From the IMG/VR virus record IMGVR_UViG_3300033141_003629, positions 1 through 64,000 of that record: a stretch of DNA of 64,000 bases; one strand, 5' to 3'. The stretch is from a virus. The notes beneath the pieces were generated by a model. The model made no database searches and was not told the origin of the DNA. It was given only the letters and a program-made list of their open reading frames with translations. A program made the position numbers and the translations under genes. This document shows positions 6,874 through 56,202 of the stretch, piece after piece (position 1 is the first letter of the stretch; each line of letters opens with the position of its first letter).

Positions 6874-7428
6874 ATGGCTGATTACAGAGTCCCAGTTTTA
6901 GAAAATTTTGAATGGCAACAATCAGTTAAAAGTAGGTCAGCAACACCTCCAGGCAGTCCAGCAAAGGGTGATAGATACCTCGTTATTGCTACTGCAAGCG
7001 GAGATTGGTCTGGTCACGAAGGAGATATTGCATATTGTTCTAATGCAGTTGGTCCAGTTTGGTCTTTTGATTCTCCCACAGAGGGTATGATTTTATGGGT
7101 AGATGATGAAGACAAGTATTATCATTATAATGGAAGTACATGGAGCGAATATCTTGGGCAGCAAGGACCCACAGGTCCAACAGGCCCACAGGGTACTACT
7201 GGTCCAACAGGCCCTACAGGTCCACAGGGTGCAACCGGCAACACAGGTCCTCAGGGTCCAACAGGCGCACAAGGTGCTACTGGTCCAACTGGCCCTACAG
7301 GTCCACAGGGTGCAACCGGCAACACAGGTCCTCAGGGTCCAACCGGCCCTCAAGGACCAACTGGTCCAACTGGTCCAGTAAATCAAACGTATGATGCAGA
7401 TTACGAAGCAATTATAATTTCACTATAA
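6874..7428 (+). CDS. Tail fibre: DUF2793 head plus collagen-like Gly-X-Y stalk
   Basis: Residues 1-92 are a DUF2793-type domain ([21 protein letters not shown], then [21 protein letters not shown]), a family found in phage fibres and adaptors. Residues 95-170 are an unbroken collagen-like repeat made mostly of GPT, GPQ and GAT triplets, which should form a trimeric triple helix. The last 14 residues ([15 protein letters not shown]) form a short cap. SD is GGATGGAGG. The same head domain opens the gene at 8440, so the two are paralogues. GPT triplets are O-glycosylated in some bacterial collagen-like proteins, and a glycosyltransferase gene follows directly. Confidence 0.85.
7171..7380 (+). 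repeat. Collagen-coding repeat with 81-bp period
   Basis: About 53 bases starting at 7211 recur from 7292 with essentially no change, a period of 81 bases or nine Gly-X-Y triplets. The near-identity in DNA, not only in protein, shows recent in-frame duplication. It also makes this region prone to slippage and fibre-length change. Confidence 0.85.
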
Positions 7429-19908: not shown

Positions 19909-20510
19909 CATCCATTATCACAAAACTAAGGTATTTATTAAGAGATTTATTAGATACGACTGGTAGACAAACATATGATTATTTGTCTACGAGCTATTCA
20001 AAGGTAATTACTTTGAATACAGACAAAGCGATTGCCTCTAGTATTAAAGTTTATAAGAATGGAATAGAGTGGTCTTCTGATAATTGGACGTATGATGTAG
20101 ATACTGCCCAACTTACAATTGAAGAAGAATCTGGAGAAGAACTAGAAGTAGGAGATGTCCTTTTAATAACTTTTTCTTATTATCAGAAATATTCAGATAC
20201 TATTTTGGAAGCATATATACGGTCTGCGCTTTATTATATTTCTATAGAACAATATAAAACTTTTGAGGTAGAAAGCGGTGGTACACTGGACCCAACACCA
20301 TCAGAACAAGAGGAAAATCTTATTGCTATTATAGCAGCAGCACTTGTTGGTGGTAATGTAGCACAATATAGGACTCCAGAATTATCCATTGTATTTAACA
20401 GTAGAGAACCAGTAGAAACTAGAATTAGAAATTTTATTCGCAAAGTAAATAAATCATATGGCGTCTTAGAATATATAGACCTGACTGCCGAAGCTACAGA
20501 GGAAGAATAA
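19905..20510 (+). CDS. Head-tail connector (adaptor) protein
   Basis: The 201-residue protein begins with helices (ITKLRYLLRDLLDTTGRQTY). It has a beta insertion (KVYKNGIEWSSDNWTYDVDTAQLTI, then EVGDVLLITFSYYQKYSDTI) and ends with helices typical of gp6/gp15-like adaptors (EENLIAIIAAALVGGNVAQY). It follows the capsid cluster and precedes the head closure gene, the usual place of the adaptor that forms the ring below the portal. Confidence 0.65.
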   Translation: MTSIITKLRYLLRDLLDTTGRQTYDYLSTSYSKVITLNTDKAIASSIKVYKNGIEWSSDNWTYDVDTAQLTIEEESGEELEVGDVLLITFSYYQKYSDTILEAYIRSALYYISIEQYKTFEVESGGTLDPTPSEQEENLIAIIAAALVGGNVAQYRTPELSIVFNSREPVETRIRNFIRKVNKSYGVLEYIDLTAEATEEE

Positions 20511-20511
20511 A

Positions 20512-20892
20512 ATGGAAGCAATGAATGAAATATTTAACCAACTAAGGCAACAGGGACTGTTAGAAACTTTATTATGTTATCCAGCAAATTCTACATTTGC
20601 GGACCCATATGAAAAGAATAAAACTAATGTCTATATGCCGCCCCTTCCGGTAGAAGGTATTGTTCATTCTATTGGATTTTCTGGCCTAAAGTGGAAATAT
20701 TATGCCCAACTTCCAACAGGGTCTATTCAACTTATTGTTGAACCAAAGTATAAAGAAATAATTTTATCAGCGAAAAAAATAGAATATAAAAACAATTACT
20801 ATACTGTTTATAGAGATGGAACTAATTTTCAATATATAGAAAGACGACATTATATTGTATTTATATTAGGGAGAAAGCAATCAAATGATTAA
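20512..20892 (+). CDS. Head closure protein
   Basis: A 126-residue strand-rich protein between the adaptor and the gp10-like genes. It has a Pro-rich turn (YMPPLPVEGIVHSIGF) and a five-strand end (KKIEYKNNYYTVYRDGTNFQYIERRHYIVFILGR), matching small SH3-like head-completion proteins. The order adaptor, closure, neck, tail terminator, tail tube in this operon supports the call more than any motif does. Confidence 0.55.
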   Translation: MEAMNEIFNQLRQQGLLETLLCYPANSTFADPYEKNKTNVYMPPLPVEGIVHSIGFSGLKWKYYAQLPTGSIQLIVEPKYKEIILSAKKIEYKNNYYTVYRDGTNFQYIERRHYIVFILGRKQSND

Positions 20893-21430
20893 AGTAAAAT
20901 TCTCATTTAGAGATAGAAGAAAATTTAAGAATCTAATACGATATATTGAAAAAATACCTTTTGTTGAAGCAGAGGCAGAAGTTCAAACAGTTGCAGAAAA
21001 TGCTGTAGAGTCTATGACTGCAACAATAAATTCTTCTAGAAAACGCCCTGATGCTGGCACTCATAAATTAGAGAATGCTATTACAATAGAAGAGCTTTTA
21101 AATAATCCTGGAAGAGAATTGCTAATTGGAATAGGGAGTTTAGATAGACTAACTCAAGAAGCTCCATATTGGGAAGTATTAGACCAGGGAGGCTATATAC
21201 CTCCAGCAAATTTAGGTTATTTTGACGGAAACCCAGAAAAGCCAACGAAAGGCATGTCTGGTCAACACTGGATGCATACCGGCAGTACTTCTGATTATTT
21301 ATTGACTCCAAAGAAACCAATTCAAGGCATTGATTATATCGGAGCCGGATTGAGAAATTTAGCACAAAGCTTAGATAAATTAGTAATTGATTTCGGTGGA
21401 AAAATTTTAGACAATATGGAGAAGATATAA
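20885..21430 (+). CDS. Neck protein of HK97 gp10-like type
   Basis: A 181-residue protein that overlaps its neighbours by eight and one bases. It starts with a long helix pair (RKFKNLIRYIEKIPFVEAEA; VQTVAENAVESMTATINSSR). Then comes a loop with GTHKLENAITIEE, the aromatic stretch APYWEVLDQGGYIPPANLGYF, and an ending LRNLAQSLDKLVIDFGGKI. The WEVLDxGG..P pattern is common in gp10-like proteins that join head and tail. Confidence 0.65.
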   Translation: MIKVKFSFRDRRKFKNLIRYIEKIPFVEAEAEVQTVAENAVESMTATINSSRKRPDAGTHKLENAITIEELLNNPGRELLIGIGSLDRLTQEAPYWEVLDQGGYIPPANLGYFDGNPEKPTKGMSGQHWMHTGSTSDYLLTPKKPIQGIDYIGAGLRNLAQSLDKLVIDFGGKILDNMEKI

Positions 21431-21906
21431 TGGGAGTCTATAGATTATCAAGAAATATAGAGGCTTCTCTTATAGATTTTTTTACTGAACAATTTGAAAT
21501 AGATTGGAGCGAGTTTAATATTCGTACTGTGAAGGTATTTCTTCAAGCATATGAAGGTACACTGCCAGCAGTATGTATAGAAGAAGTAACCACAAACCCA
21601 GTAAAAAAAGAAATTGGTAGCTCTGCTTGGCTAAAAATTCCAGAAATTTCTATAAGAGTATTTGCTACTTCTGATGGATTAAGAAAGGATTTGAGAGATT
21701 ACATAATAGATAAGCTAGAAGGAAATATTCCTTATTATCAGTATACGATAACCGATGGGGGAGTTACAGAAAAAACTTTAGCAGGACAGATTGTTGTACG
21801 AGAGATTTTAAGAGATGCAAAAGAATTAACTAATACAGAAAATTTAGAACTTGCTGATAAATTTAGGCATATTATAATTTTTTCAGCAATAATAGCATTG
21901 TCATAG
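21430..21906 (+). CDS. Tail terminator (tail completion) protein
   Basis: The 158-residue protein follows the gp10-like gene with a one-base overlap. It shows the alpha-beta pattern of the lambda U/gp11 family: an N-terminal helix, KVFLQAYEGTLPAVCIEEV, then IPEISIRVFATSDGLRKDLRDYIIDKLEG and a closing strand FRHIIIFSAIIAL. It would cap the tail tube at the head side. The stop codon is TAG, which confirms TAG as a stop in this phage. Confidence 0.65.
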   Translation: MGVYRLSRNIEASLIDFFTEQFEIDWSEFNIRTVKVFLQAYEGTLPAVCIEEVTTNPVKKEIGSSAWLKIPEISIRVFATSDGLRKDLRDYIIDKLEGNIPYYQYTITDGGVTEKTLAGQIVVREILRDAKELTNTENLELADKFRHIIIFSAIIALS

Positions 21907-21916
21907 GAGAGACGTC

Positions 21917-22120
21917 ATGGCTTGGATTCCAGTAGTTTCACTTGCATTAAATTTGACTATTTTAATTGTTTCTATAGGGGGATTTATAAAAGTACTAAAA
22001 AATGACCTCATGCATGTTCAAAAAGATTTGAAAGAAATAAAAGATGCTATTAAATCTATTTCTGCAACAACAAGTAATTTAGCAGAAAGAGTATCTACTA
22101 TTGAGGGTAGATTGCAATAA
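21917..22120 (+). CDS. Small membrane-anchored coiled-coil protein (XhlA/holin-like)
   Basis: The 67-residue protein has one membrane segment (about residues 6-28, VVSLALNLTILIVSIGGFI). A heptad coiled coil follows (LKEIKDAIKSISATTSNLAERVSTIEGRL). This is the plan of XhlA-type proteins that work with holins. SD is GGAGAG. It lies in the tail-gene cluster between tail terminator and tail tube, unusual for a lysis gene, so a role in the virion or at infection is possible too. Confidence 0.6.
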   Translation: MAWIPVVSLALNLTILIVSIGGFIKVLKNDLMHVQKDLKEIKDAIKSISATTSNLAERVSTIEGRLQ

Positions 22121-37275: not shown

Positions 37276-39288
37276 TTATAGTTGTTGTGTAAAATATATT
37301 TCGTCAGGCATAAGGAGCCTGCTATATAATTTTGGAGAAGATAGGTTAATAGTATAATAGTCGCAGACAAACTTTAAATACTTTAGGCGAGTTTGTTCTT
37401 TGATTCTTAAATTTTTTAGAGATTGAGTGAGGTTTCTGGCCTTGTCATTGATTCTTAATTGAAAAACCAAATCATCTGTATTACAATAGTGAAATCCTAT
37501 AGTAGCGAATTTTTTTCTTTTAATTATTCCTTCAAAGACAGTGGTGGAGGAAAAAGAAGTGAAGTAGTTGAATATATCAAAAAGAGTATCTAAGTTCTCA
37601 TACACCTCAATGATATTTGGATATTTTTTAAAGAATTTTAAATCGGAACTTGCTTTGTGATGTCCCCTATATAGAGGGTGGTGCTTAATTAAAAATCTTG
37701 TTCCTGGATTTGAATTAACTACCAAATCAATATATTCTTCGTAGGTATTTATTTTTTTGTTGACAGTTTTTTTAACGCTCATATCCCATAGCAATTGTCC
37801 AAAAATCACAATATAAGTTTCTTTCGGGTTTAGGCTATATTTGGCAAAGAATTGGCTAGGTGTTATTTTGTCTGGCTGGGGTTGTCTACTAGACTTTGGC
37901 AAGTCTATATTTTGTAAATTATCTAGCGGCATTTTATCAATATATTTATAAATATCGTTGGGACAGGTATATTGACACCCACTAGAATCAAATAACCACT
38001 TCCCATCAAAAGCAGTTTCTGTATTAATATGTTTAATTCCCAGAGAGTTACATGCTTTCATTAGTTGTTCGTGGTATGGGTGTAGTGGTTGGGCATTTAT
38101 TACTTGGTCTATATAATTTTGTTTTAAGATTTTTATACACTCAAAATATATTTGATTTTCTTGTTCTTGTGTAAGTTCTGGTCTACATATATCATTAATT
38201 GGTGGAAATCTAAAACAATTGTTTAAATTTAAATTTTTATAGGGGGTTAATGAGGTATGGTCTATAGTAAATATATTAAAATGCTCTTCTATTAGAGGGT
38301 TGTTTTTAATTTTATGACATTGCTCTGCTCTCATTCTACTTATTAAAAGATTTTTTTTGGGTTTTATGAAATTTATATTATAATTTGGCTGCTTATTTGT
38401 TAATTGCTCAAAAGCTATGTCTATTTTTTCTAGAGGAATAAACTTATTACAATCATGTCGTCTGTTTAAACACTCACATGGTGGGTCTGGTGTAATAATT
38501 TTAAGATTTCTTAAATCCATGCGCTCGAAGTCAATATATTTTGCTGGATTAGAGTAGCCCCCGCCAATTACTATAGTTTTTGTTTTTGTGGCTATGCCCA
38601 AAGGAAATAAAAAACAATTATAAGTAAGAACTAGGTCACACAAAGGAACTAGCCCTATGATAGTATATAGGTCTAATTCTCCATTCTCAAATCTAATATC
38701 TATATTATTAAGCTCTTCTGTGACATTATCAATTGTTCTATCTGCAATACTTATAAAGAAATATTTTGACTTATATTTGTCTATGATGTATTGGAAGTAT
38801 CTCACATCTGGAATTCTGGCATTATTTTTCCAATCTTTTCTATTTGATGGTGGTTTTAGAATACATATTTTTTTAGTAGTATGAAACGTCTCAAAAATTT
38901 TTTTTGCTTTTTTTATCCAGGTTGGATGAATTGGGATTGTATAATCTATATTTTTAGATTCTATAGGAATAGCACGATTAAATGCTTCTGGTAGAGTTCC
39001 ATTTTTTTTGAATTCTGCAATATAATATGGAATTGGGAGATTTTTTGCTTTTCTGTCTTTAGAGGTCCAAAAAGAATCGGGATAGCTATTTATAATTTGT
39101 TGACATGTTTTTAAGGTTTTGCATGCGCGGGGTTTAATATATTTGACATTGGCTAATTGATAAAACAGAAATGGAAACGGGGTTTCTAAGTATACCGTCT
39201 TATATTTTTTGCAAGCCTCTTTTATATAGGGATATATAAAAATATTATCACCGAACCCAGCATATGAAGTTATTATAACTGATTTCAT
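37276..39288 (-). CDS. Double glycosyltransferase: GT9 heptosyltransferase-like plus GT-B capsule-type domain
   Basis: I chose the ATG at 39288 (MKSVIITSYA), which forms an ATGA overlap with the epimerase stop; the longer frame starts with TTG. Residues 1-320 look like the GT9 family: SYAGFGDNIFIYPYI at the start, KKICILKPPSNRKDWKNNARIPD, and LVPLCDLVLTYNCFLFPLGIATKTKTIVIGGG. Residues 325-670 are a second transferase-like part with YIVIFGQLLWD, RFLIKHHPLYRGHH and YFTSFSSTTVFEGIIKRKKFATIG, resembling capsule-type GT-B enzymes. At 670 residues it is about twice one enzyme. Two sugars could thus be added in turn. Confidence 0.7.
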   Translation of the reverse strand: MKSVIITSYAGFGDNIFIYPYIKEACKKYKTVYLETPFPFLFYQLANVKYIKPRACKTLKTCQQIINSYPDSFWTSKDRKAKNLPIPYYIAEFKKNGTLPEAFNRAIPIESKNIDYTIPIHPTWIKKAKKIFETFHTTKKICILKPPSNRKDWKNNARIPDVRYFQYIIDKYKSKYFFISIADRTIDNVTEELNNIDIRFENGELDLYTIIGLVPLCDLVLTYNCFLFPLGIATKTKTIVIGGGYSNPAKYIDFERMDLRNLKIITPDPPCECLNRRHDCNKFIPLEKIDIAFEQLTNKQPNYNINFIKPKKNLLISRMRAEQCHKIKNNPLIEEHFNIFTIDHTSLTPYKNLNLNNCFRFPPINDICRPELTQEQENQIYFECIKILKQNYIDQVINAQPLHPYHEQLMKACNSLGIKHINTETAFDGKWLFDSSGCQYTCPNDIYKYIDKMPLDNLQNIDLPKSSRQPQPDKITPSQFFAKYSLNPKETYIVIFGQLLWDMSVKKTVNKKINTYEEYIDLVVNSNPGTRFLIKHHPLYRGHHKASSDLKFFKKYPNIIEVYENLDTLFDIFNYFTSFSSTTVFEGIIKRKKFATIGFHYCNTDDLVFQLRINDKARNLTQSLKNLRIKEQTRLKYLKFVCDYYTINLSSPKLYSRLLMPDEIYFTQQL

Positions 39289-40280
39289 GATAGCTTTGTT
39301 CTCCAATATTCATAGACATCTTTTAGTGTTTTTTCTATCGGAATCACAGGCTTCCAGTTGGTATAAGCTTTTAATTTTGTTGTATCTCCTACTTGGATTT
39401 GAATGTCTATTGGTCTATAGACTCTTTTATCTATTTTTTTTATAATTTTACCTTTTAGTCCGGCAATTTCTATTAGTTTATCAGTAAAAAATACCATTTG
39501 TTTTACAGTAGAAATATCTCCACACACATTAAATGCTTGTCCATTTATTTCATCAGAAAAGTTTTTCATTAAGAGATAATATGCATTCATACAATCTCTC
39601 GCATCTATAACTACTCTATAGGTTTGTAGATTTCCAACAGGAAGTATATCTGTTTTTTCTTTGCCAGTAGTTATTAATGCAAGATGGTAGGCATCCCATG
39701 AGATAGAAAAATTTTTTCCCCTTCTAGGTGCTAAGTGAGAAAAAGCTCTTGTGTTGAATCCTTTTATAAATCCATTTTTGCATCTCTCTGCAATATATGT
39801 TTCTGCTGCCATTTTTGACCATCCATATGGATTTGATGGTTTTAGTGGTATATTTTCTTTAAGTATACCTATATCTTTACACTCATCTCCGTAAACTTCA
39901 CTAGTAGATACATTGCATATGATACACTCGTTATTATATTTTTCAATGGCAGTAGCCAAATTGATAGTTCCAACCACATTTGTTTTCATTGTGCCAACTG
40001 GGTCTTTGAATGAAGTGGGTGGGTGAGATTGTGCAGCTAAATGAAAGCACCAATTATACTTATTTTCTTTAAATATTCTTTCCAGTGAGTAATAATCTTT
40101 CAAATCCCCATAATGAAAAGTGATTTTTTCTATATTTTTTGGAGTCATTACATCTAAAAGACTATATTGGTTTCCATTGCTTCCTCTAATAAGAGCATGT
40201 ACTTCATGACCATCTCTAAGGAGGATATTTGCTAAGTGAGGAGCAGCATGTCCTAGTATACCAGTTATAAAGACTTTCAT
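39285..40280 (-). CDS. NAD(P)-dependent nucleotide-sugar epimerase/dehydratase (extended SDR, GMD-like)
   Basis: The 331-residue protein has the nucleotide-binding motif TGILGHAAPHL (residues 6-16), FHLAAQSHPPTSFKDP (the AAQSH block of GDP-mannose dehydratases), VSTSEVYGD and the active YGWSK near residue 149. TRAFSHLAPRRG and the C-terminal RPIDIQIQVGDTTKLKAYTNWKP fit GDP-mannose 4,6-dehydratase or a close relative. It overlaps both the cupin and the transferase genes by ATGA, so the three are one unit that makes and uses an activated sugar. The exact substrate cannot be read from the sequence. Confidence 0.8.
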   Translation of the reverse strand: MKVFITGILGHAAPHLANILLRDGHEVHALIRGSNGNQYSLLDVMTPKNIEKITFHYGDLKDYYSLERIFKENKYNWCFHLAAQSHPPTSFKDPVGTMKTNVVGTINLATAIEKYNNECIICNVSTSEVYGDECKDIGILKENIPLKPSNPYGWSKMAAETYIAERCKNGFIKGFNTRAFSHLAPRRGKNFSISWDAYHLALITTGKEKTDILPVGNLQTYRVVIDARDCMNAYYLLMKNFSDEINGQAFNVCGDISTVKQMVFFTDKLIEIAGLKGKIIKKIDKRVYRPIDIQIQVGDTTKLKAYTNWKPVIPIEKTLKDVYEYWRTKLS

Positions 40281-40672
40281 TTCTTTCTCCTATTTTTTTC
40301 TAATATTTGGTTTAAAGTGTATTCTTTCCCCCCTATTATTCTACCCCCTTGAGAATGTCTAATAATATCTTTTGGGTTTATTTTTGATTTTGTAACGTAA
40401 GCCAATTCTATCATAACAGAATTTTTTAATGCTTTAAATCTATGACTAAGAGGAGGATGAACCTCCCAACTTTCATTTGGTTTTAAACTTGTTTTTCCAA
40501 ATGCTGTTTCTATTTCTACTTTTCCAGATACGACTACAAATTTATTAATTTTATTTTTGTGATAATGATAAGAACAAAAAGCGTTTTTTTTAATATATAA
40601 TAGGTCTATTTCACACCCATCGGTTAGGAGAATCCTACGCCGTTCCCCCCATACTTTGTGAATGTTGCTCAT
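40277..40672 (-). CDS. Cupin, mannose-6-phosphate isomerase type II-like
   Basis: The 131-residue protein carries the double cupin motif: FCSYHYHKNKINKFVVVSGK (metal His pair and Lys/Glu position), and ESWEVHPPLSHRFKAL (third His). The HKVWGE start and the ending ELAYV...DIIR..QGGRI are as in sugar-phosphate isomerase cupins linked to GDP-mannose enzymes. It is coupled to the epimerase gene, which strengthens a sugar-nucleotide role. Confidence 0.75.
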   Translation of the reverse strand: MSNIHKVWGERRRILLTDGCEIDLLYIKKNAFCSYHYHKNKINKFVVVSGKVEIETAFGKTSLKPNESWEVHPPLSHRFKALKNSVMIELAYVTKSKINPKDIIRHSQGGRIIGGKEYTLNQILEKNRRKK

Positions 40673-41251: not shown

Positions 41252-41815
41252 TTAGGCTAGTTTGTCAACTACTCCACGAGCCAAGCATTGTTCTGCATTG
41301 AACCAAAGTTCTCCATTAATGGCTTTTTCAATATCAACCTTAGATAATTTTGTCTTTTGTTTTAGTATTTCTATCATTATATTATCGAGGACAGATAAAT
41401 ACTTTGCTCTATCTTTAATAAAGCTAACATAGTCATTAACACCACTCGACATTGGGTGCATCATCCAAAAAGAGTTTTTATACATATATCGCTTGTTTCC
41501 AAAAATACTGATATATGCGGCCATTGAACATGCTTCTCCATTTATTAGCGTAATAATAGGAGCAGCAGAAGATTTAATAGCATTTATAATTGCAAATCCA
41601 TCAGCAACGCTTCCTCCAGGACTATTTATTTCGAGAACAATAGGAGCTTTTTTGTTTATTTCATTCATCGCATATATTTTTGTAACCACATTATTAGCAA
41701 TTTCAGCATTTATATCAGAAAAGAGCAAAATATGTCTTTGTTTATTTAAGATGCATTGAAAAGCTTCTTCTTTATACAGAGGGGGAAGCTTAATTCTTTG
41801 CTTTTTCTTATTCAT
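41252..41815 (-). CDS. ClpP-like serine protease
   Basis: The 187-residue protein shows the ClpP core: VLEINSPGGSVADGFAI (residues 60-76), NGEACSMAAYISIFG with the active Ser at 97, and FWMMHPMSSG with the active His at 120. The end (GELWFNAEQCLARGVVDKL) matches the ClpP C-terminal block, but the usual catalytic Asp before that stretch is not obvious (Gly-Glu instead). No head role is likely because the phage has its own head protease. It overlaps a winged-helix gene by ATGA. A role in host protein turnover is inference. Confidence 0.8.
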   Translation of the reverse strand: MNKKKQRIKLPPLYKEEAFQCILNKQRHILLFSDINAEIANNVVTKIYAMNEINKKAPIVLEINSPGGSVADGFAIINAIKSSAAPIITLINGEACSMAAYISIFGNKRYMYKNSFWMMHPMSSGVNDYVSFIKDRAKYLSVLDNIMIEILKQKTKLSKVDIEKAINGELWFNAEQCLARGVVDKLA

Positions 41816-42055: not shown

Positions 42056-43246
42056 TTATGCAGATTTCAATTTTAATTTTGGAATAAATATTAAACAACA
42101 CAATGTTGCGACTGTTGCTGTAATGACATTTACAGAATATCCAAAGTGGTCATATATCCACCCCCCAATTGGAGCACTTAGCCCTCCAGCAAAATTATTA
42201 ATGCTAGTAGCGAGTGCATATAATAATCCTTCTGCTCCCCTAGGAACGATTTTTGCCATAAAGGCTAGGATAGCTAAAAAGGAAATTCCACTAAAAGCCC
42301 CAAAAGCCAAATTGTAAGCTATAAGCATCCACTTATTAGGTAGATATAGGTAGAAAAGATTTGTTATTGCTCCAAAAATAATAGCAAAATAAAGTAATTT
42401 TTTTAGTGGATACTTGTAAGCTTTCCAATAATAAAGAAGATAGCCAATTAGACCTACCACCGTTCCGATAGTACCAGAATAGCCAAGAAACATTTTATCA
42501 ACCCCCAGGCCCTCTCTCACCCGAATCATTAGGGCGGTCCCAAAGGACGGGCTAAATTGCAGACAAGCAATAAAGGCTAGCCCCAATAAAAAGTTGCGGT
42601 CGAGCGCTTTTTTTAGAGAGTTTTTAATATTTTGAAATGTTAAAGAACGGGTCGTTTTCTTTTCTTTATAAAAACGAGTTAGATATATCAAAGTAATCAA
42701 AGGCAAAATTCCAACAAGTGCATATGCGATTTTATAGTTAAGCGGTTCAGGGAAATGAGAAGCAATATATGCCCCTCCTAAGGATACCAATAATCCAGCC
42801 ACTCCAAGGCTGCTCCATTGAAGCGCTTGAATTTTTCCGTTCATCTTTTTATTTCTTTCCAAAAGAACCATTTGTGTGTCATTTGCAACATCATTAAATC
42901 CTGTGCAGGTAGCCATTAGGAAACCAATTACAATAAGAGAAACCAAATTAAGTCCAAACAAAACAACATAGGCAATAGATGCTAGAAGAAGCAAATAGCT
43001 AAGAATGAGCCAATATTTAGTGCGATAATTTTTTAGAGAAAAACAATCACATATAATCCCATATATTGGTTTTATACACCAGGGGATTGTCACAGCAAAT
43101 GTAATGAACCCGATTTGAGTGGCAGTAAGTTTCCAAGATTCGCGAGTAAGATAATAAAGGCACTGACTTGGCAAGCCAGATAAACCTTGGTTAGCGTAGA
43201 CTAATACGAAAAATAGAAATGTTAGAAATGGAATTTTTTTATTCAT
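42056..43246 (-). CDS. Major facilitator superfamily transporter (FBT/AmpG-like)
   Basis: A 396-residue protein with about twelve hydrophobic segments, full length for MFS. The TM2-TM3 loop reads KPIYGIICDCFSLKNYRTKYW, a form of the MFS signature. TM4-TM5 has GFNDVANDTQMVLLERNKKM, where acidic residues within the membrane recall folate-biopterin (BT1/FBT) or AmpG-type carriers. The second half has a matching VPRGAEGLLYALATSINNFAGG. It overlaps the ASCH gene by eight bases. Complete MFS carriers are very rare in phages. The substrate is unknown; a folate or muropeptide is possible from the subfamily resemblance. Confidence 0.75.
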   Translation of the reverse strand: MNKKIPFLTFLFFVLVYANQGLSGLPSQCLYYLTRESWKLTATQIGFITFAVTIPWCIKPIYGIICDCFSLKNYRTKYWLILSYLLLLASIAYVVLFGLNLVSLIVIGFLMATCTGFNDVANDTQMVLLERNKKMNGKIQALQWSSLGVAGLLVSLGGAYIASHFPEPLNYKIAYALVGILPLITLIYLTRFYKEKKTTRSLTFQNIKNSLKKALDRNFLLGLAFIACLQFSPSFGTALMIRVREGLGVDKMFLGYSGTIGTVVGLIGYLLYYWKAYKYPLKKLLYFAIIFGAITNLFYLYLPNKWMLIAYNLAFGAFSGISFLAILAFMAKIVPRGAEGLLYALATSINNFAGGLSAPIGGWIYDHFGYSVNVITATVATLCCLIFIPKLKLKSA

Positions 43247-43562
43247 TTTTTAGAAATGTTAAAATAAGAATTTTACTGAAATCCCAGGTTTTAAATTTTT
43301 CAAATACTCTCTTGACTTTTTCTATATTGTCTATTCCAGTATCTACCATAAGCAGTGCTTTTGGAATTTTTTCATACTCTAGTTCTTCTACGGCCAATAA
43401 AATTGCTTCCCCAATTTTTTTATTATTTAGCAAAATATTAAATAGTTTGTTTATTTTGGAGTAATAATATTGATATTTCTTAAAGTTAGATTTGCGGATA
43501 GTAGTAAAAATGGGTTGATTTAGTTTATTATTCCAATTATGAGAAAATTTAATATTATTCAT
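43239..43562 (-). CDS. ASCH/PUA-like domain protein
   Basis: A 107-residue protein with SHNWNNKLNQPIFTTIRKSN, an ILLNNKKIGEAILLAVEELE stretch and VDTGIDNIEKVKRVFEKF. The order (start with a thiamine-like TTIR turn, then a beta barrel and a helix) fits the ASCH branch of PUA-like RNA-binding folds often seen in phages. It overlaps both neighbours by eight bases in the AATGAATAA form. RNA binding or RNA cleavage is possible. Confidence 0.6.
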   Translation of the reverse strand: MNNIKFSHNWNNKLNQPIFTTIRKSNFKKYQYYYSKINKLFNILLNNKKIGEAILLAVEELEYEKIPKALLMVDTGIDNIEKVKRVFEKFKTWDFSKILILTFLKNE

Positions 43563-43995
43563 TTTTTTTATATTCTTTCTTTATTTCGTCTATATCGGAA
43601 CGCAATTTATTGATTTTATTTTTTACTTTTTCACTTGTAAAGCCAAAAAAAGTCATTTCCCATAAACAATGACAAAGAATGTCTATCAAAGAAAAATATT
43701 CTATTGATTTTTTGGCAATTGGCATAGATAACCACTCTGCCCAATCAATAAAATCTAATGCCCAGTGCTTCTCATCGGTTTTTGTTATTCCACTAATAGA
43801 AATATAGTCTCGTTTATCACGAACATCTCCATATTCCATTATGAGAATCGTGAACCTTGTTTTTTTTGGTTTGGTGGTTTTTAATTCTTCTAAAACTTGA
43901 AGATAGTGCTCGCTCCGCTGTCCTGGATATAATTCTACTAGTCTTTTAATAACTTGTTCTGGATTGAGTTTAAAAATCAAATCTCCAAATGTCAT
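43555..43995 (-). CDS. Conserved hypothetical protein (DUF6557-like)
   Basis: The 146-residue protein has the pattern MTFGDLIFKLNPEQVIKRLV, DFIDWAEWLSMPI and ILCHCLWEMTFFGFTSEKV. I recall the WEMTFxGF block from a small family of unknown function in phages and bacteria (DUF6557), but could not check it. It has no membrane segment. It starts in an ATGA overlap with a 20-codon microgene. Confidence 0.6.
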   Translation of the reverse strand: MTFGDLIFKLNPEQVIKRLVELYPGQRSEHYLQVLEELKTTKPKKTRFTILIMEYGDVRDKRDYISISGITKTDEKHWALDFIDWAEWLSMPIAKKSIEYFSLIDILCHCLWEMTFFGFTSEKVKNKINKLRSDIDEIKKEYKKNE

Positions 43996-44054
43996 TTTAT
44001 CTCCTTATAAGACACATCGATTAGTTTTTTAGCGAGGCGAATGATTTTTTTCAT
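43992..44054 (-). CDS. Possible microprotein (20 aa) linking two genes
   Basis: MKKIIRLAKKLIDVSYKEIK would be a short basic amphipathic helix. Its ATG overlaps the stop of the site-2 protease gene (ATGA) and its stop overlaps the next ATG in the same way. Its tail codons also form the SD (AAGGAG) of the next gene. It may exist mainly to carry ribosomes across, like a coupling leader. Confidence 0.4.
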   Translation of the reverse strand: MKKIIRLAKKLIDVSYKEIK

Positions 44055-44686
44055 AGCATTTTTCCAATTCTTTCTAGGCTCCACCTAACAAATAAATTTC
44101 CGAGATATAATATACAAAAAATATTTAAAAGATTGATGAAAAACATTCCAGCATTAACAGCACGTTGCATAAGAATTATTCCATCTTTTTTTCCAAACTT
44201 TTTTTCCAATAGAAATAGCAAGGGGTAACTCCCATCTAATGCAGGGAAGGGAATTAAATTGCTCAGCCCAAGAACAATACTCAAATAACCAAAGTTATAA
44301 AATGGGACCCAATTAAACAAAACACCTAAACCCAAAGACATCAGACCTGTTATACAGTTTGCCAAAATACCAGATAGTGCAATACAAGACTTCTGCATAT
44401 ATGGTAAGTTTGTAAATGCTCTTTTCTTTTTAGAATAATCCAATTCCCCATCTAGAGAACAATAGCCCCCAAGTAAAACCCACGATATTTGATAGATTGT
44501 TTCTCCCTTTCTAAAAGAAAAGAAAGGCTTTCCAAATCCAATTGAGAATACCTTTACTTTGCACCTATATTTTTTAGCTCCCCATAAATGGCCTAATTCG
44601 TGAATCATAATAACTAATATCAAAATAATACAAATTTGTGCAGCGAAGTTGATATGTGGTAATAAAGGATGAATAAAGCTAAGCAT
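44051..44686 (-). CDS. Site-2 protease, RseP-like intramembrane zinc metalloprotease (M50)
   Basis: The 211-residue membrane protein has HELGH at 29-33 inside the first membrane helix. FSIGFGKPFFSFRKGETIYQ and LGGYCSLDGE match the RseP FGFGP..PLGGY segment, and LANCITG and FPALDGSYPLLFLLE match the PDZ-less S2P second motif with Asp at 151. All parts for a minimal, PDZ-free intramembrane protease are present. It is three bases from the deformylase gene and overlaps a microgene. It could cut a host anti-sigma factor or a signal peptide. I know of few phage-encoded S2Ps. Confidence 0.8.
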   Translation of the reverse strand: MLSFIHPLLPHINFAAQICIILILVIMIHELGHLWGAKKYRCKVKVFSIGFGKPFFSFRKGETIYQISWVLLGGYCSLDGELDYSKKKRAFTNLPYMQKSCIALSGILANCITGLMSLGLGVLFNWVPFYNFGYLSIVLGLSNLIPFPALDGSYPLLFLLEKKFGKKDGIILMQRAVNAGMFFINLLNIFCILYLGNLFVRWSLERIGKML

Positions 44687-44688
44687 AG

Positions 44689-45330
44689 TTATCTTCTTTT
44701 GTGTTTTCTATTAAAGATTGTCTTGCCTTGTAAATGGTCTACTTCGTGTTGAATTACTACACTCTCAAAATCTTGATAACAGCTAGTTGTAGCTTCTAGT
44801 TTTTCGTTATGATTAACCAATGTAATAAATACCCACCTATCGGTGTCTACTCTTATACGAGGAAAACTTAAACATTCCTCTCCTTTAACTGTGAATTTTC
44901 TATCGTGTTCTACAATTTTTGGATTTATCAAAAGAAGTTCTTTTGGCCTTAATTTTTTATTTTTTTTATCAATATCAACCATTTTAATATAAGAAATTTG
45001 TTTGCAATAACCAATTTGATTTGCACTTAATCCCACGCCCCCAACATGTGCCAGAGTTTCTTTCAATTCTACAATAATTTGAGAAATATCTTCTCCTGGT
45101 TCTACTGGTTTGCAGGGAATCCTCAATTTATTTAAATTATGAATAATTTCTCTCACATTTGGGTTAGCTTTTTTTTCTTTCACTTCGTGCACAAAAGCTT
45201 TTGGGTTTTCTAGCATTTTCTTTAGTTGTTTTCTTTCAGAACAGGAGAGGTAGCCCCTTTCCATTCGTATTTTTTGTTCTTCAAGATAAACATTGGCTTC
45301 TATTTCTGTAGAAAAAGAAGTTTTAAGCAT
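44689..45330 (-). CDS. Peptide deformylase with N-terminal extension
   Basis: The three deformylase motifs are complete: GVGLSANQ (98-105), EECLS with metal ligand Cys153 (motif 2, usually EGCLS) and HEVDH (195-199). The first 60 residues are a helical extension with no known counterpart, while the catalytic part is normal for type I enzymes. Phage deformylases are known in marine T4-like phages, usually shorter than this. The enzyme would remove formyl from new proteins. It overlaps the RecA-like gene by eight bases and is followed at once by the S2P gene. Confidence 0.85.
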   Translation of the reverse strand: MLKTSFSTEIEANVYLEEQKIRMERGYLSCSERKQLKKMLENPKAFVHEVKEKKANPNVREIIHNLNKLRIPCKPVEPGEDISQIIVELKETLAHVGGVGLSANQIGYCKQISYIKMVDIDKKNKKLRPKELLLINPKIVEHDRKFTVKGEECLSFPRIRVDTDRWVFITLVNHNEKLEATTSCYQDFESVVIQHEVDHLQGKTIFNRKHKRR

Positions 45331-45982
45331 CTTCTCTCCTCACTGGAATAAAAAAGTTTGAAGAAACAAGTTTTGGAAATAAACGATTTTTTGTTACTTT
45401 GGTCTTAATATTATAACCTATAATTTTATTGCCTTTTTTTATTTGGGTTTTATTGGTTAATTTTATTTGTATATCTATGTTGGGAGTTATGGTTCTATAT
45501 TTTGCACTTACAGTTTTTCTCCGTTTTATATCTTTTCTAATTTGATTAGTTAAAAACACAGCACATTCTGATAGATGAACCGCACTTACGAATTCTGCCC
45601 AGCCTTTTTTTGATAAATCTAGGGCTGCGATTGAATCTATGAAAATAACATCAACTAGAGCAAGAAGGCTTTTATAATGCTGAATGAAGTGGTCTGGATT
45701 TATAATATAAAGAAGCTCTAAGTCTACTCCAATAAAACTACCATATGACGAGTCGAAGCAATAGTCTGCATTAACAAACATAACTGAATTTTGCTGTTGT
45801 AATTTTTTTATTAGTTCTAGACAAAGAGTAGTTTTTCCAACTCCAGGCCCCCCAAAAAATTCATATATTTTGCCTTTTGGGAGGGAAGCAGACCCAAAAA
45901 TTTGAAAGAAATTGCTTATATCTATCGAAGCAACATTTTTTGGGTATGGATAAAGTTGATTTTCTAGATTTTTTAAGTCCAT
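45323..45982 (-). CDS. RecA/RadB-like ATPase, short form (Sak4-like)
   Basis: The 219-residue protein has FFGGPGVGKTTLCLELI (Walker A near 43-51), DVIFIDSIAALDL (Walker B near 110) and a later FLTNQIRKDIKRRK (L2 or NQ sensor). This is the core of RecA-like recombinases without the C-terminal domain, as in Sak4 or RadB. A longer RecA-like gene lies at 58899. The small form may be a recombination mediator or single-strand annealing factor. Confidence 0.7.
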   Translation of the reverse strand: MDLKNLENQLYPYPKNVASIDISNFFQIFGSASLPKGKIYEFFGGPGVGKTTLCLELIKKLQQQNSVMFVNADYCFDSSYGSFIGVDLELLYIINPDHFIQHYKSLLALVDVIFIDSIAALDLSKKGWAEFVSAVHLSECAVFLTNQIRKDIKRRKTVSAKYRTITPNIDIQIKLTNKTQIKKGNKIIGYNIKTKVTKNRLFPKLVSSNFFIPVRREDA

Positions 45983-47565: not shown

Positions 47566-48816
47566 CAGTCCTCATTTTTGTTTATAATTCTTTGTATTAT
47601 CAATTGATTTAAAAATATGAGCAATTACATCCACTGTCCATCCATTACCTAACATTTTATATCTTTGTGAATCACTAACTCCTAATGTATAGTTATCTGG
47701 AACAGTTTGTAATCTTTCACATTCTAAGGGAGTTAATTTTCTCCAAGTTAATTTGGATGTTGTAATTTTTGGTTCTCTATGTCCGCCTGTCATAGTGGTA
47801 AGTGTTGGACACTTACCATTTATATCGTATGTTCTTTTAATGATATCAAAACCTTTTAAATTTGCTATTCCTGTTTGTATAAGTAAATTATTATATTGCC
47901 TCATACTTGGGGTTTTCCCATTTTTCGCCTTAATTCCGCCTTTATTTACTCCATGAGGTAATTGAAAAATTAATTGTCTTCGTTTTTTATTAAAATATTG
48001 TTTTAGGTTTCCGCCTTTAAAATAATTACTATCAATGCAATAACTTTTATCTTTATCTACAATTTGATAAGATTTATTTTTATATATATTATCCCACTCT
48101 TGTTTACTTCCTACAGGACTATTTCTACCACTAACACGGACTATTTTGGATTTTTTTCTTAATAAATTAACCTCATAATTTGGTTGTTTTTCTAAAATAT
48201 CTTTTAAATAAATTTTTTTATCTTTGGGTTGTTTTATATTTGGAATGTTAGTCCAATATAATCTTTTTCTGTTTTGAGCTGAAACTAATGCACTATTAAT
48301 TAAAATGGGTTCTACCCCCATTAATTCTGAAATTTTATTTTGAAATTCTTTTTTCATTTTTACGTTTTCTAAAAGAAAATATTTAGGTTTAGTTTCTTTT
48401 AATAATCTAACAAATTCAAAAAATAATTTACTTCTTGGGTCATTAAAATTTAATTGTTTCCCTGCAAAACTAAATCCTTGACATGGAGAACCGCCCATAA
48501 GAATATCAATTTTAGGCAAATCTTTTCCATTTATTTTTGTAATATCTCCTAATTGAATAGTATTTGGATAATTTGATTGTGTTACTTTGATAGCATATTT
48601 ATCAATTTCTGATGCAAAATATTTATCAACCTTAATACCTGCACGTTCTAATGCAATTTGCCCACAACTCATTCCATCAAATAAACTTAGTACATTCATT
48701 TTAATATCTCTCTATTTTTAACTTTTTTTCCTTTTAGATATTTTTAGTAGTATCTATTGTGATTTTTCTCCAAAAGAAAGTTCTTCTTTTGGAAAAAGTT
48801 TAAAATTGTTGAGTTT
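47501..48816. repeat. 47-bp direct duplication flanking the methyltransferase gene
   Basis: The 47 bases at 47501-47547 and 48770-48816 are identical. They encode residues 7-22 of the SbcC-like protein in both places. The copies face the same way and enclose the cytosine methyltransferase gene. A 19-base string (gatttttctccaaaagaaa) is also shared by 47372-47390 and 48761-48779, so the outer copy looks like a junction of two parts of the gene. Confidence 0.9.
47572..48699 (-). CDS. C5-cytosine DNA methyltransferase
   Basis: The 375-residue protein has the ordered motifs of this class: LFDGMSCG (motif I, 6-13), GGSPCQGFSFAG with catalytic Cys73 (motif IV), ENV (111-113, motif VI), QNRKRLYW (142-149, motif VIII) and LGNGWTVDV (motif X). 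The target-recognition part lies about residues 180-310. No restriction enzyme is next to it. It would protect phage DNA from host restriction or mark it. It lies exactly between a remnant of the SbcC 5' end and the intact gene, which shows it was inserted there. Confidence 0.9.
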   Translation of the reverse strand: MNVLSLFDGMSCGQIALERAGIKVDKYFASEIDKYAIKVTQSNYPNTIQLGDITKINGKDLPKIDILMGGSPCQGFSFAGKQLNFNDPRSKLFFEFVRLLKETKPKYFLLENVKMKKEFQNKISELMGVEPILINSALVSAQNRKRLYWTNIPNIKQPKDKKIYLKDILEKQPNYEVNLLRKKSKIVRVSGRNSPVGSKQEWDNIYKNKSYQIVDKDKSYCIDSNYFKGGNLKQYFNKKRRQLIFQLPHGVNKGGIKAKNGKTPSMRQYNNLLIQTGIANLKGFDIIKRTYDINGKCPTLTTMTGGHREPKITTSKLTWRKLTPLECERLQTVPDNYTLGVSDSQRYKMLGNGWTVDVIAHIFKSIDNTKNYKQK

Positions 48817-53202: not shown

Positions 53203-53332
53203 TTTTTAATTCAATCGCTTCATTAATAAATTTTATAGAATCTTCTAAATAAATATTTTTTCTGCATTCTTTGTTGTGCATTGCCATTTGAATTCTTTCT
53301 TTTGCTAATTCGAGCCATTCAATAATAGTCAT
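53186..53332 (-). CDS. Small helical protein (48 aa) before RuvC
   Basis: The frame MTIIEWLELAKERIQMAMHN ... is helical and charged, with AAGGAT upstream. It starts two bases after the polymerase-HD stop and overlaps the RuvC start by 17 bases. No domain is known. The tight placement suggests it belongs to the replication operon. Confidence 0.55.
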   Translation of the reverse strand: MTIIEWLELAKERIQMAMHNKECRKNIYLEDSIKFINEAIELKNENED

Positions 53333-53334
53333 AT

Positions 53335-53877
53335 TTATCCTTGGTCTTTTGGAGTGACTAAGTCTTTAGTAGCAGCCAAATAATCCGCCATATAGACAAC
53401 GAACTCCAATTTGCTGTATTTTTCTATAGGCTTTTTTATGCATTTCGGAGTCCAAAGCCCCATATGAAAACATATACAATTATTAATTTTTTGCAATATT
53501 TTATCATCCAAACCTACAACATCTACTGCAAAATAATTGCAAGCATTTATTGGATGATTTTCATAATCCTCATATGTAGATTTATTTTTGTCTACTTTAG
53601 CAATATCATGCAAAATCCCCGCAGCTAAAACAATATCTTTATCAATTCCTTTAATATCCAATCCGAGACATAGGCGACTAATAAAATAAATTGCTCTCTT
53701 AACGTGTACAATTAACCCGCCTTTTTTACAAGTACACGCTGGGTGATGTTTGCCAGTTGAAGAAGCCATACCAATGTAAAAATAATCTGGGGTATTTTCT
53801 AATGACTTTTTAACAAATTCACGAATAGCGTTATTAGAAATCAATGCTATTTCTTTATCTAATACATCCGCCTTCAT
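53335..53877 (-). CDS. HD-domain protein from an internal start in the polymerase gene
   Basis: On the minus strand AAGGAGGAG ends three bases before an in-frame ATG at 53877 (MKADVLDKEI). It is among the best SD sites in the whole window. The product would be a complete 180-residue HD protein with His58, HD at 90-91, His108, His138 and Asp164. It resembles YqeK-type and related phosphohydrolases. Separate translation besides the fusion is inference from the preserved site. Confidence 0.6.
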   Translation of the reverse strand: MKADVLDKEIALISNNAIREFVKKSLENTPDYFYIGMASSTGKHHPACTCKKGGLIVHVKRAIYFISRLCLGLDIKGIDKDIVLAAGILHDIAKVDKNKSTYEDYENHPINACNYFAVDVVGLDDKILQKINNCICFHMGLWTPKCIKKPIEKYSKLEFVVYMADYLAATKDLVTPKDQG

Positions 53878-56202
53878 TGACTCCTCCTTTTTTATGCTAC
53901 AGTTTTTGGCATGTTTGGAGCGTTTGTGGCATGTTTGATTGCTTAGTATATGTTTGGACTTTTCAATAGTCCAGCCCATTGCATCATAAATCTTCTTCAT
54001 CTTACTATCAATGCTTTTATCAATAACTTTCTTCCAGTTTACTTTCATTTTTTTTACTAAATCTTGAGATTCTTTAGTATCATCAAAACACAGTACATCT
54101 TTTTTAACTTCGGTGATAGATTCTGTTGTTTCTCCTGTTTTTTTGCTAGTTCTCTTGCTTTTTCTTGTAGCTGTTCCAAAAGGCTCTACTGGAATATAAT
54201 AAAAAGAATCTCCAGCAAATTTTTGCCACTTAGGATTCAACTCTTTGGTATATTTATTGCCTCTTACAAAAATAGGGGGCGATTTATAAACCGTATTTTT
54301 TAATTTACAAGGAAAACCAACTTCATTCAGGGGGAGGATTTTAATTCTTTCTTTCTCTTGCTTTACAAAGGACTCAATTTGTTCCTTTGTTTCTTCGTTC
54401 TTTATTTTGTTAATGACTTCTGCTTGAAAATGTTTAATATATTTAGAAGAGTCTGCTCTTTTGACTTCAATACCTTTTTCTTCATGCTTTCTTTTCCCAT
54501 TCTTTTTTAATAAGTCTCCATCATAGTGACATAAAGCAATAATAAAAATCTTTTCAAAAATTCCTTCATAATCAAACTCAATCTCTACATTATTTTTATT
54601 ATACTTCTCTTTAGCCCACTGTTTTATTAATTGGTTACATAAGTCTGTGGGATTTTCTTCTGCCCGTATAAGAAGACCATCTGTATCAATATAAATAATT
54701 TTTATTCCTCGTTCTTGTAATTTATTTTCTACATAGTGAAGCAAGTCTCTAATTAAAAAAGTTATTGCTCTTGCTATTCGGATATCAAAGAGTCTAAAGA
54801 CTTTTAATCCACATACTCCAAAGAGAGAATTAACTACTGCCTTGGTAGCATCGTATTTAATTTGGAGGTCTTTAGCTTCCTGCGTTTCTGGGTCTAATGC
54901 ATTTAGTCTTTTCTTTATTTCCTCTTTTTTGTTAATCAATTTTCTGGCTAACATTGGTAACAGAGCATTTGATTTTTGAACAAAACGAGTTTTTTGAATT
55001 TCAATGCCTTCATTTTCTCGTATATTACCAATATCTAGACAAAAATTAATTATGCTTTGAGGATATGCACTAGACAAGTCTACTTTATATAAATTTTTGT
55101 ACAGGCCAGTTAACCTCTCAATCGTAGTGCCGTCTTTATCTTCTATATTACACCTTCTATAAGCTCCTTCAAAAGTTTCGTCTAATTCAGAATCATAATT
55201 TTTTGATGGCAATATAATTCCCATGCTCTTAGCTTCAGAAAGAACCATCATATCCAGTATTTTTGAATTCCAAGATAAATCTTCCCAGGCCGATTTGCTC
55301 ATGCGCCTAAGCTCATCATAGTAATTTACAATATGTAGTTTTTCTTCAATTTTCATCATTCTGCGAATATCGTTTATATTTTTCTCTTTTAATTTATCCG
55401 ATAAAACATTAAATGGCACTTTCTCAAAAGACTCTTCTTGAAGCTCTATCTGTGCAATACTATCGAGAGCATAAGAGCGTTTTCCTTTATATATTTTCTT
55501 ATACCAATCAAGAAAATCAACTACTCCTAGTCCTGCAGGTAGAATAGTTGGGTTATCTTTGCTTCCTATTATTCTATTATGAAAGATAGGGGATAAAACT
55601 CCTGCTAATTCTACTCCAAATACTTTTTTATATCTTGCACTTAAATAAGGCCAGTCAAATTTAAGCATATTCCAAGCAGCTATAAAATCAAACTGCTCCT
55701 TTCTCATCCACTCTACAAAATCATTTAGTAATTGTTTTTCTCTATTGAGCAAATCTGTATCTGGACTAATTAGATAATCACCTAAGTAGAAGGTTTTTAT
55801 TTTGCCCGTATAATTATTAGAAACAGAAATACATGAAATTGGCGAATCTGGAAATTCTGGAGATGGGAGTGCACTACAAAGAACTTCGATATCTATAAAA
55901 GAATATTTTATTTTCGCTGGAAGAAATTTACCAATTTTATCTATGATATATCTTTTATAAAATAAAACATCTGCTTCATAGGAGTTTTTATTTCTTTTCC
56001 TTCCGACTTCATACGGTTGATTACAAATAACTTTTTTAACTTTTTTCCTATCTATGGTCTTATATATGCCTGCATTAGATGGTTGATAAAAATATGGTTT
56101 AAAGGTAAGGTCTTTAAAAAGAGATAATTTTTCTCCTATACGATGAAATATATAAATTTCTCGCCCTTTATTTGCTACATTAGTCACTGCAAAATTAAGC
56201 AT
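53335..56202 (-). CDS. Family B DNA polymerase fused to a C-terminal HD phosphohydrolase domain
   Basis: Residues 1-775 are a complete polymerase. The exonuclease motifs are FIDIE (102-106) and AAWNMLKFDWPYL (175-187). The polymerase motifs are YKVDLSSAYP (372-381), KYDATKAVVNSLFG (449-462) and YIDTDG (504-509). Residues 776-955 are an HD domain with His833, GILHD (His865, Asp866), His883, His913 and Asp939. The join is one open frame without a stop. Just before residue 776 stands a perfect SD, so the HD part once had, and may still have, its own start. The short Cys/His-rich link CHKRSKHAKNC lies between. HD domains act on nucleotides or phosphodiesters; here it could manage dNTPs at the fork. 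Confidence 0.85.
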   Translation of the reverse strand: MLNFAVTNVANKGREIYIFHRIGEKLSLFKDLTFKPYFYQPSNAGIYKTIDRKKVKKVICNQPYEVGRKRNKNSYEADVLFYKRYIIDKIGKFLPAKIKYSFIDIEVLCSALPSPEFPDSPISCISVSNNYTGKIKTFYLGDYLISPDTDLLNREKQLLNDFVEWMRKEQFDFIAAWNMLKFDWPYLSARYKKVFGVELAGVLSPIFHNRIIGSKDNPTILPAGLGVVDFLDWYKKIYKGKRSYALDSIAQIELQEESFEKVPFNVLSDKLKEKNINDIRRMMKIEEKLHIVNYYDELRRMSKSAWEDLSWNSKILDMMVLSEAKSMGIILPSKNYDSELDETFEGAYRRCNIEDKDGTTIERLTGLYKNLYKVDLSSAYPQSIINFCLDIGNIRENEGIEIQKTRFVQKSNALLPMLARKLINKKEEIKKRLNALDPETQEAKDLQIKYDATKAVVNSLFGVCGLKVFRLFDIRIARAITFLIRDLLHYVENKLQERGIKIIYIDTDGLLIRAEENPTDLCNQLIKQWAKEKYNKNNVEIEFDYEGIFEKIFIIALCHYDGDLLKKNGKRKHEEKGIEVKRADSSKYIKHFQAEVINKIKNEETKEQIESFVKQEKERIKILPLNEVGFPCKLKNTVYKSPPIFVRGNKYTKELNPKWQKFAGDSFYYIPVEPFGTATRKSKRTSKKTGETTESITEVKKDVLCFDDTKESQDLVKKMKVNWKKVIDKSIDSKMKKIYDAMGWTIEKSKHILSNQTCHKRSKHAKNCSIKKEESMKADVLDKEIALISNNAIREFVKKSLENTPDYFYIGMASSTGKHHPACTCKKGGLIVHVKRAIYFISRLCLGLDIKGIDKDIVLAAGILHDIAKVDKNKSTYEDYENHPINACNYFAVDVVGLDDKILQKINNCICFHMGLWTPKCIKKPIEKYSKLEFVVYMADYLAATKDLVTPKDQG

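Follow-up and report, generated by a model that had tools for sequence, protein, structure and literature searches.

A PDZ-less RseP-type site-2 protease gene beside a peptide deformylase gene in a lineage of tailed phages

Why should a phage carry the gene for an intramembrane site-2 protease (S2P) directly beside that for a peptide deformylase (PDF), and do the two products serve one process or two? Intramembrane proteases are well known in cells and barely documented in phages. The pair was analysed in a DNA stretch of 64,000 nucleotides (the window), which comprises positions 1–64,000 of a 69,635-base IMG/VR record (G000). The window phage is tailed, with genes for portal, capsid, terminase, family B DNA polymerase and primase-helicase.

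The protease and deformylase genes

A preliminary description, made from the sequence alone, had placed an S2P and a PDF at positions 44051–45330, and both open reading frames were confirmed there, with the following features.

44051–44686, minus strand: S2P of RseP type, PDZ-less, a multi-span membrane protein of 211 aa (Pfam M50, E = 6e-32)
44588–44602, minus strand: HELGH zinc and catalytic motif of S2P, residues 29–33 (H29, E30 and H33 invariant in 13 phage S2Ps)
44231–44239, minus strand: LDG motif of S2P, residues 150–152, with D151 as the third zinc ligand (D151 and G152 invariant in 13 phage S2Ps)
44689–45330, minus strand: PDF, a soluble protein of 213 aa (Pfam, 1.4e-32; PHROG 2890, 1.2e-21; AlphaFold2 pLDDT 91.7)
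44866–44883, minus strand: PDF motif II, GEECLS, with the metal-binding cysteine (E151, C153 and S155 invariant)
44734–44748, minus strand: PDF motif III, HEVDH (H195, E196 and H199 invariant)
45145–45330, minus strand: N-terminal helical-hairpin extension of PDF, about 62 aa, common to 10 relatives

The genes are adjacent, as described, and the gap between them is 2 bp (44687–44688) by coordinates, not the three bases given earlier. Besides HELGH and LDG, the LGGY motif was found as claimed, the latter two within ALDG and LLGGY, and the stretch previously read as FGFGK proved to belong to FSIGFGKP, the RseP signature. Profile searches with Peptidase_M50 (PF02163) and Pep_deformylase (PF01327), which the preliminary description had proposed, matched S2P at E = 6e-32 and PDF at E = 1.4e-32, respectively, each far above the curated cut-off. 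The RseP profile TIGR00054 scored 109.2 bits with S2P over two separate stretches, below its curated cut-off of 147.55, and the NCBIfam profile TIGR00079 scored 100.3 bits with PDF, just under its cut-off of 103.95.

The HEXXH motif of S2P was placed in the first core transmembrane helix, and the third contains an NxxPxPxxDG motif, of which N143, P146, P148, D151 and G152 are invariant in 13 phage S2Ps. Mutated motifs in most members had been named as evidence against the assignment; HEXXH was instead intact in every S2P examined. The AlphaFold2 model (13 phage relatives; mean pLDDT 89.1) comprises a transmembrane helix with HEXXH, a long β-hairpin at residues 44–78 (strands 44–60 and 63–78) and helices bearing the LDG motif. 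This membrane-reentrant β-hairpin core fold yielded Z-scores of 10–19 against solved S2Ps. Alignment over the whole length gave Z = 18.9 with Aquifex aeolicus RseP (9j82; 188 residues, 2.5 Å) and comparison with E. coli RseP (7w6x) gave Z = 18.6, in keeping with the RseP likeness first proposed; scores were lower with Methanocaldococcus jannaschii mjS2P (Z = 11.6) and SpoIVFB (Z = 10.1). No Pfam match to a PDZ domain was obtained for S2P, and its HEXXH and LDG motifs are separated by 121–152 residues in the phages, whereas nearly all of 79 cellular relatives have a spacing of at least 273. Because the model matches RseP at full length and the phage spacing is short, the protein, 189–232 aa long across the phages, is in its predicted structure the RseP membrane core minus the PDZ domains.

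In a maximum-likelihood tree, a branch with 100/100 support divided 13 phage S2Ps from the sampled cellular RseP sequences. The latter were limited to matches of a two-pattern scan and the S2P of relative G018 is long-branched, so the tree bears on the separation of the phage clade from this sample, not on its origin. The scan of cellular genomes yielded cellular RseP only. The sole cellular protein without a full PDZ-sized insert (L104) was rejected: it lies next to uppS and cdsA in a Clostridia genome and is the housekeeping rseP. S2P matches in the phage record collection were likewise discarded as at least partly bacterial contamination, with one (H1) lying within a uppS–cdsA–dxr–rseP–ispG cluster and three (H4–H6) being annotated cellular RseP in records of 105–290 kb.

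The PDF is complete and has the extra N-terminal helical region noted earlier. Its motif I includes the catalytic glutamine (G100 and Q105 invariant in 13 relatives), all three motifs are complete and invariant across these relatives, and structure comparison of the model returned PDF folds. The extension is predicted, with high confidence, to fold into a hairpin of two helices (residues 9–24 and 30–41); it was found in 10 core-relative PDFs, and no other protein encoded by these phages has it. At the opposite end, the model stops shortly past the HEXXH helix, such that the C-terminal α3-helix for ribosome binding is absent, as in other viral PDFs (PMC5591237). Our guess would be that the N-terminal extension substitutes for this missing anchor.

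Ratios of dN/dS in pairs with unsaturated dS were 0.12–0.30 for S2P and 0.20–0.32 for PDF, which indicates that both genes are under purifying selection. Since these ratios are low and the catalytic residues invariant, the pair was judged to be far above chance.

Conservation of the pair and its neighbourhood

Relatives were gathered from IMG/VR via alignments of the capsid protein, primase and S2P; S2P and PDF, each run alone against viral contigs, produced no match. A first survey of 21 records found S2P in 14 and PDF in 15, with PDF present in all 14 S2P records. Together with later matches, 16 distinct viruses encode both, and in 12 of them S2P follows PDF with no gene in between (G000, G001, G003, G006, G009, G013, G014, G018, G019, G021, G023 and G026); the search for the pair in related phages, proposed earlier, thus found it in most. 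The genes are otherwise separated by one HNH endonuclease gene (G016), by one member of that cluster whose HNH match is no more than weak (G011), by two genes (G025) or by 13.5 kb (G012). Relatives that lack one partner had been named beforehand as evidence against the coupling, and some were found: S2P was not detected in PDF-positive G017 (70 kb), nor PDF in S2P-positive G027 (82 kb) and G028 (90 kb), and G010 (90 kb) had neither; the remaining negative records are short fragments. These absences are provisional because every record is incomplete or of unknown completeness. Coupling of the two genes is frequent, not obligate.

The most divergent fully compared relative, G018, has a primase 31% identical to that of the main clade and shares about 20 reciprocal best-hit genes with it. 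In eight comparisons with main-clade members, PDF–S2P was twice the sole conserved adjacent pair and five times belonged to a set of no more than five; in the eighth, with G016, the pair is interrupted by the endonuclease gene. Gene order is otherwise scrambled, and the two genes have therefore either been held together or been exchanged together. A linkage exceeding chance is supported.

The pair is accompanied, nearby or farther off in the same record, by the following genes.

45323–45982, minus strand: RecA/UvsX-like ATPase, immediately upstream of PDF with an 8-bp overlap (Pfam RecA, 5e-20)
43555–43995, minus strand: DUF6557 protein, between S2P and the transporter (Pfam, 4.7e-35)
42056–43246, minus strand: MFS transporter of the conserved island, BT1/folate-biopterin-like, with AmpG second (Pfam BT1, 5e-25)
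41252–41815, minus strand: ClpP-like serine protease of the conserved island, kept in relatives (Pfam CLP_protease, 4e-34)
66344–67345 of record G000 (L003:3345–4346), just outside the window: membrane-anchored HtrA/DegS-like trypsin (Trypsin_2 domain)

The order in the main clade is SbcC, a small membrane protein, PDF, S2P, variable genes, MFS transporter, ClpP and metallophosphoesterase. The variable slot is occupied by an M16 peptidase directly after S2P in G001 and G023 and nearby in G003, by an M17 leucyl aminopeptidase after S2P in G016 and G019, or by a second ClpP-like protein in G006, G011 and G013; many members, the window among them, have neither M16 nor M17. Every long relative encodes the transporter, which is BT1/folate-biopterin-like or AmpG-like. 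Its scores with the NCBIfam fbt and AmpG profiles were far under cut-off, a search against solved structures gave no match, and neither did a search of the isolate phage collection with copy L031. A direct partnership with S2P was rejected, as the transporter also occurs in S2P-less G010 and G017 and is hence not specific. Between S2P and the transporter, G018 of the second sub-lineage described below encodes a LOG/lysine-decarboxylase-like protein (L174:7350–7988) and a small HEXXH protein (L174:6881–7360), which were also seen in G017.

The trypsin was found throughout the lineage. It has one N-terminal transmembrane segment, a His–Asp–Ser triad that is intact in most members, and a protease domain matching DegP/DegS models; no PDZ match was obtained and the chain stops right past the protease domain. 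Its gene is more than 20 kb away from S2P in the main clade, where it adjoins a gene resembling M14-type zinc carboxypeptidases/desuccinylases (L003:4357–5103). In a second sub-lineage, the order is ClpP–trypsin–PDF–S2P (G018 and G026) or ClpP–trypsin–S2P (G024), and in G027 it is ClpP–trypsin–trypsin–S2P, with trypsin overlapping S2P by 4 bp. Trypsin and ClpP occur without S2P in G010 and G017, and S2P therefore tracks PDF more closely than it does the DegS-like protease in the first survey.

A sigma-70-family factor scored over cut-off in 8 of 14 and 2 of 11 records of the lineage. It was seen in most long records (G001 74606–75244, G003 21199–21909, G006 20344–21054 and others), and the contig of the window seems to stop short of this gene. 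A single-span anti-sigma-like gene adjoining the sigma gene was looked for in the lineage records and not found. Searches for the host returned no matches for TerL, capsid or MFS transporter in the phage collection and no useful tRNA; Shine–Dalgarno sites precede 39 of 61 genes, against a background of 9%.

Several other genes were recorded in passing. The HNH-type endonuclease cluster c0 comprises 164 members in 18 records (e.g. G006 76883–77626 and G003 53311–53997), some of which split the SbcC and MFS genes, as introns or homing elements that interrupt genes would do. A terminase-like open reading frame with an intein/homing-endonuclease-like start (L226:2055–3938) directly precedes an S2P gene. 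The window further encodes a DNA C5-methyltransferase-like protein in the same operon direction (47572–48699), a family B DNA polymerase with an apparent C-terminal HD-type phosphohydrolase domain (53335–56202), a probable tail fibre protein with collagen-like GPTGPTGP repeats (6874–7428), and sugar-related proteins (glycosyltransferase-like, NDP-sugar epimerase-like and cupin; 37276–40672) that possibly modify surface glycans.

Possible roles of the pair

We tentatively favour, at a probability of roughly one in three (0.35), that PDF and S2P form part of a phage protein-turnover island at the host inner membrane, where signal peptides and stubs would be cleared and then deformylated and broken down. 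S2P would cut single transmembrane segments, for example leftover signal peptides and the stubs that remain once membrane proteins are trimmed, much as E. coli RseP is reported to remove remnant signal peptides (PMC4597795). The PDZ tandem of RseP is described as a size-exclusion filter that limits access (PMC4597795), and a core without this filter should accept more membrane stubs. Cytosolic fragments freed from protein N-termini would begin with formyl-methionine, and PDF would strip the formyl group, rendering them accessible to aminopeptidase-type enzymes (M17/M16) and other peptidases; amino acids would be returned and the membrane kept free of debris during infection. Clearance and recycling is preferred because one pathway covers PDF, S2P, M16/M17 and ClpP together. 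In its favour are the RseP fold lacking PDZ, the PDF–S2P adjacency kept as far as G018, the M17 or M16 gene close to S2P in several relatives, the closer tracking of PDF by S2P in the first survey, and the in vivo activity of short phage PDFs (PMC5591237). The formyl-methionine link between S2P and PDF is a chemical argument, and we infer what S2P cuts, in which direction the pathway runs, what the transporter does and how the phage gains. Against this reading, two S2P-positive records (82 and 90 kb) lack PDF, and M16/M17 are missing from many members.

The shared position of the two genes could also reflect a common expression class. It is possible, if doubtful, that PDF and S2P are two independent helpers, with PDF processing phage N-termini as in marine phages, S2P maturing or removing one phage membrane or secreted protein, and the genes being neighbours through a shared promoter or expression window. 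Short phage PDFs work as enzymes in vivo (PMC5591237), and PDFs are present in 78 records of the phage collection, which argues that they are common and active alone; the two genes do separate, by 13.5 kb in G012 and entirely in single-partner G017, G027 and G028; and conserved single-span phage proteins such as c35 (window 21917–22120) are candidate S2P substrates. Independence is, however, hard to reconcile with an adjacency that is kept in 12 of the 16 viruses with both genes and persists where G018 and the main clade have otherwise lost almost all shared gene order. Very little likelihood attaches to the maturation and export of a small phage or host peptide, signal-like or bacteriocin-like, by S2P, M16/M17 and the MFS transporter. 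Some peptide maturation systems do combine an S2P with M16 peptidases and transporters, and the phage S2P weakly matched an NCBIfam daptide intramembrane protease; yet neither a precursor peptide nor a modifying enzyme was apparent among the island genes.

A further reading, which we regard as unlikely, is a deregulated mimic of regulated intramembrane proteolysis (RIP), in which the HtrA-like protease as site-1 enzyme, S2P as site-2 enzyme and ClpP would imitate DegS–RseP–ClpXP without PDZ gating and force a membrane-held regulator, for instance a host anti-sigma factor, to be released. The lineage encodes all three protease types, the trypsin has the single N-terminal anchor, the mostly intact triad and the DegP/DegS-like domain without PDZ, and the genes form ClpP–trypsin–PDF–S2P in G018 and G026, with trypsin directly upstream of S2P in G024 and G027. 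RseP PDZ domains make site-2 cleavage dependent on site-1 cleavage (PMC4597795), which also counts for this mimic. The lineage encodes a sigma-70-family factor of its own, and the earlier suggestion that the pair edits protein N-termini and membrane signals in the host, for example to release a sigma factor, is a conjecture that fits this gene together with a protease of DegS topology. Such a cascade is nonetheless at odds with the missing single-span anti-sigma-like gene beside the sigma gene, the retention of trypsin and ClpP without S2P in G010 and G017, and the distance of more than 20 kb between trypsin and S2P in the main clade; moreover, the ClpP-like proteins also resemble phage head-maturation proteases in profile matches. 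Less probable still is the fuller version, an unregulated envelope-stress cascade of PDZ-less DegS-like protease, RseP-like protease and ClpP that forces release of host regulators, with PDF exposing the fragment N-termini to degradation.

Comparison with known systems

Phage S2P genes were held at the outset to be hardly described, and the papers searched agree: their only mention of a viral M50 gene names it in passing as an auxiliary gene of river viruses, with no partner described (PMC12993620). A full-text search covering part of the subscription journals returned no study of a phage S2P, the PDF–S2P pair or the island, and PHROGs contained no family matching the phage S2P. Phage PDFs are well known, and a few uncultured phages have proteins annotated as M50. 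What the present lineage adds to these is an RseP core without PDZ domains, phage-restricted as sampled and set within a conserved island of proteolysis genes.

The PDF shares its three catalytic motifs and short C-terminus with other phage PDFs (Vp16 PDF, marine viral PDFs and PHROG 2890), but differs in its N-terminal helical hairpin of about 62 aa and its neighbouring S2P gene; the island gives gene context to the question of why phages carry deformylases. The viral proteins A0A6J5SMS1 and A0A6J5RHB6 are likewise M50 proteases of uncultured tailed phages, although, in a comparison by sequence and database name, they are only 19–22% identical to the phage S2P and their names indicate no partner. 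The σE RIP cascade (DegS–RseP–ClpXP) comprises the same three kinds of protease, clustered here in one sub-lineage, whereas both predicted phage membrane proteases lack PDZ; phage rewiring of host membrane proteolysis becomes testable with this set. With the group III enzymes mjS2P and SpoIVFB, the phage S2P has in common the PDZ-less state and the core fold, but it is nearer to RseP in sequence and structure, has no CBS domain, and its model ends past the membrane core. RseP/RasP (M50B, S2P group I) shares with it the membrane core, HEXXH, LDG, the membrane-reentrant β-loop and the FSIGFGK signature; the phage protein differs in being phage-encoded and PDZ-less, in its length of 189–232 aa, its separate clade and its score under the TIGR00054 cut-off, and offers a natural minimal PDZ-less RseP core for studies of mechanism.
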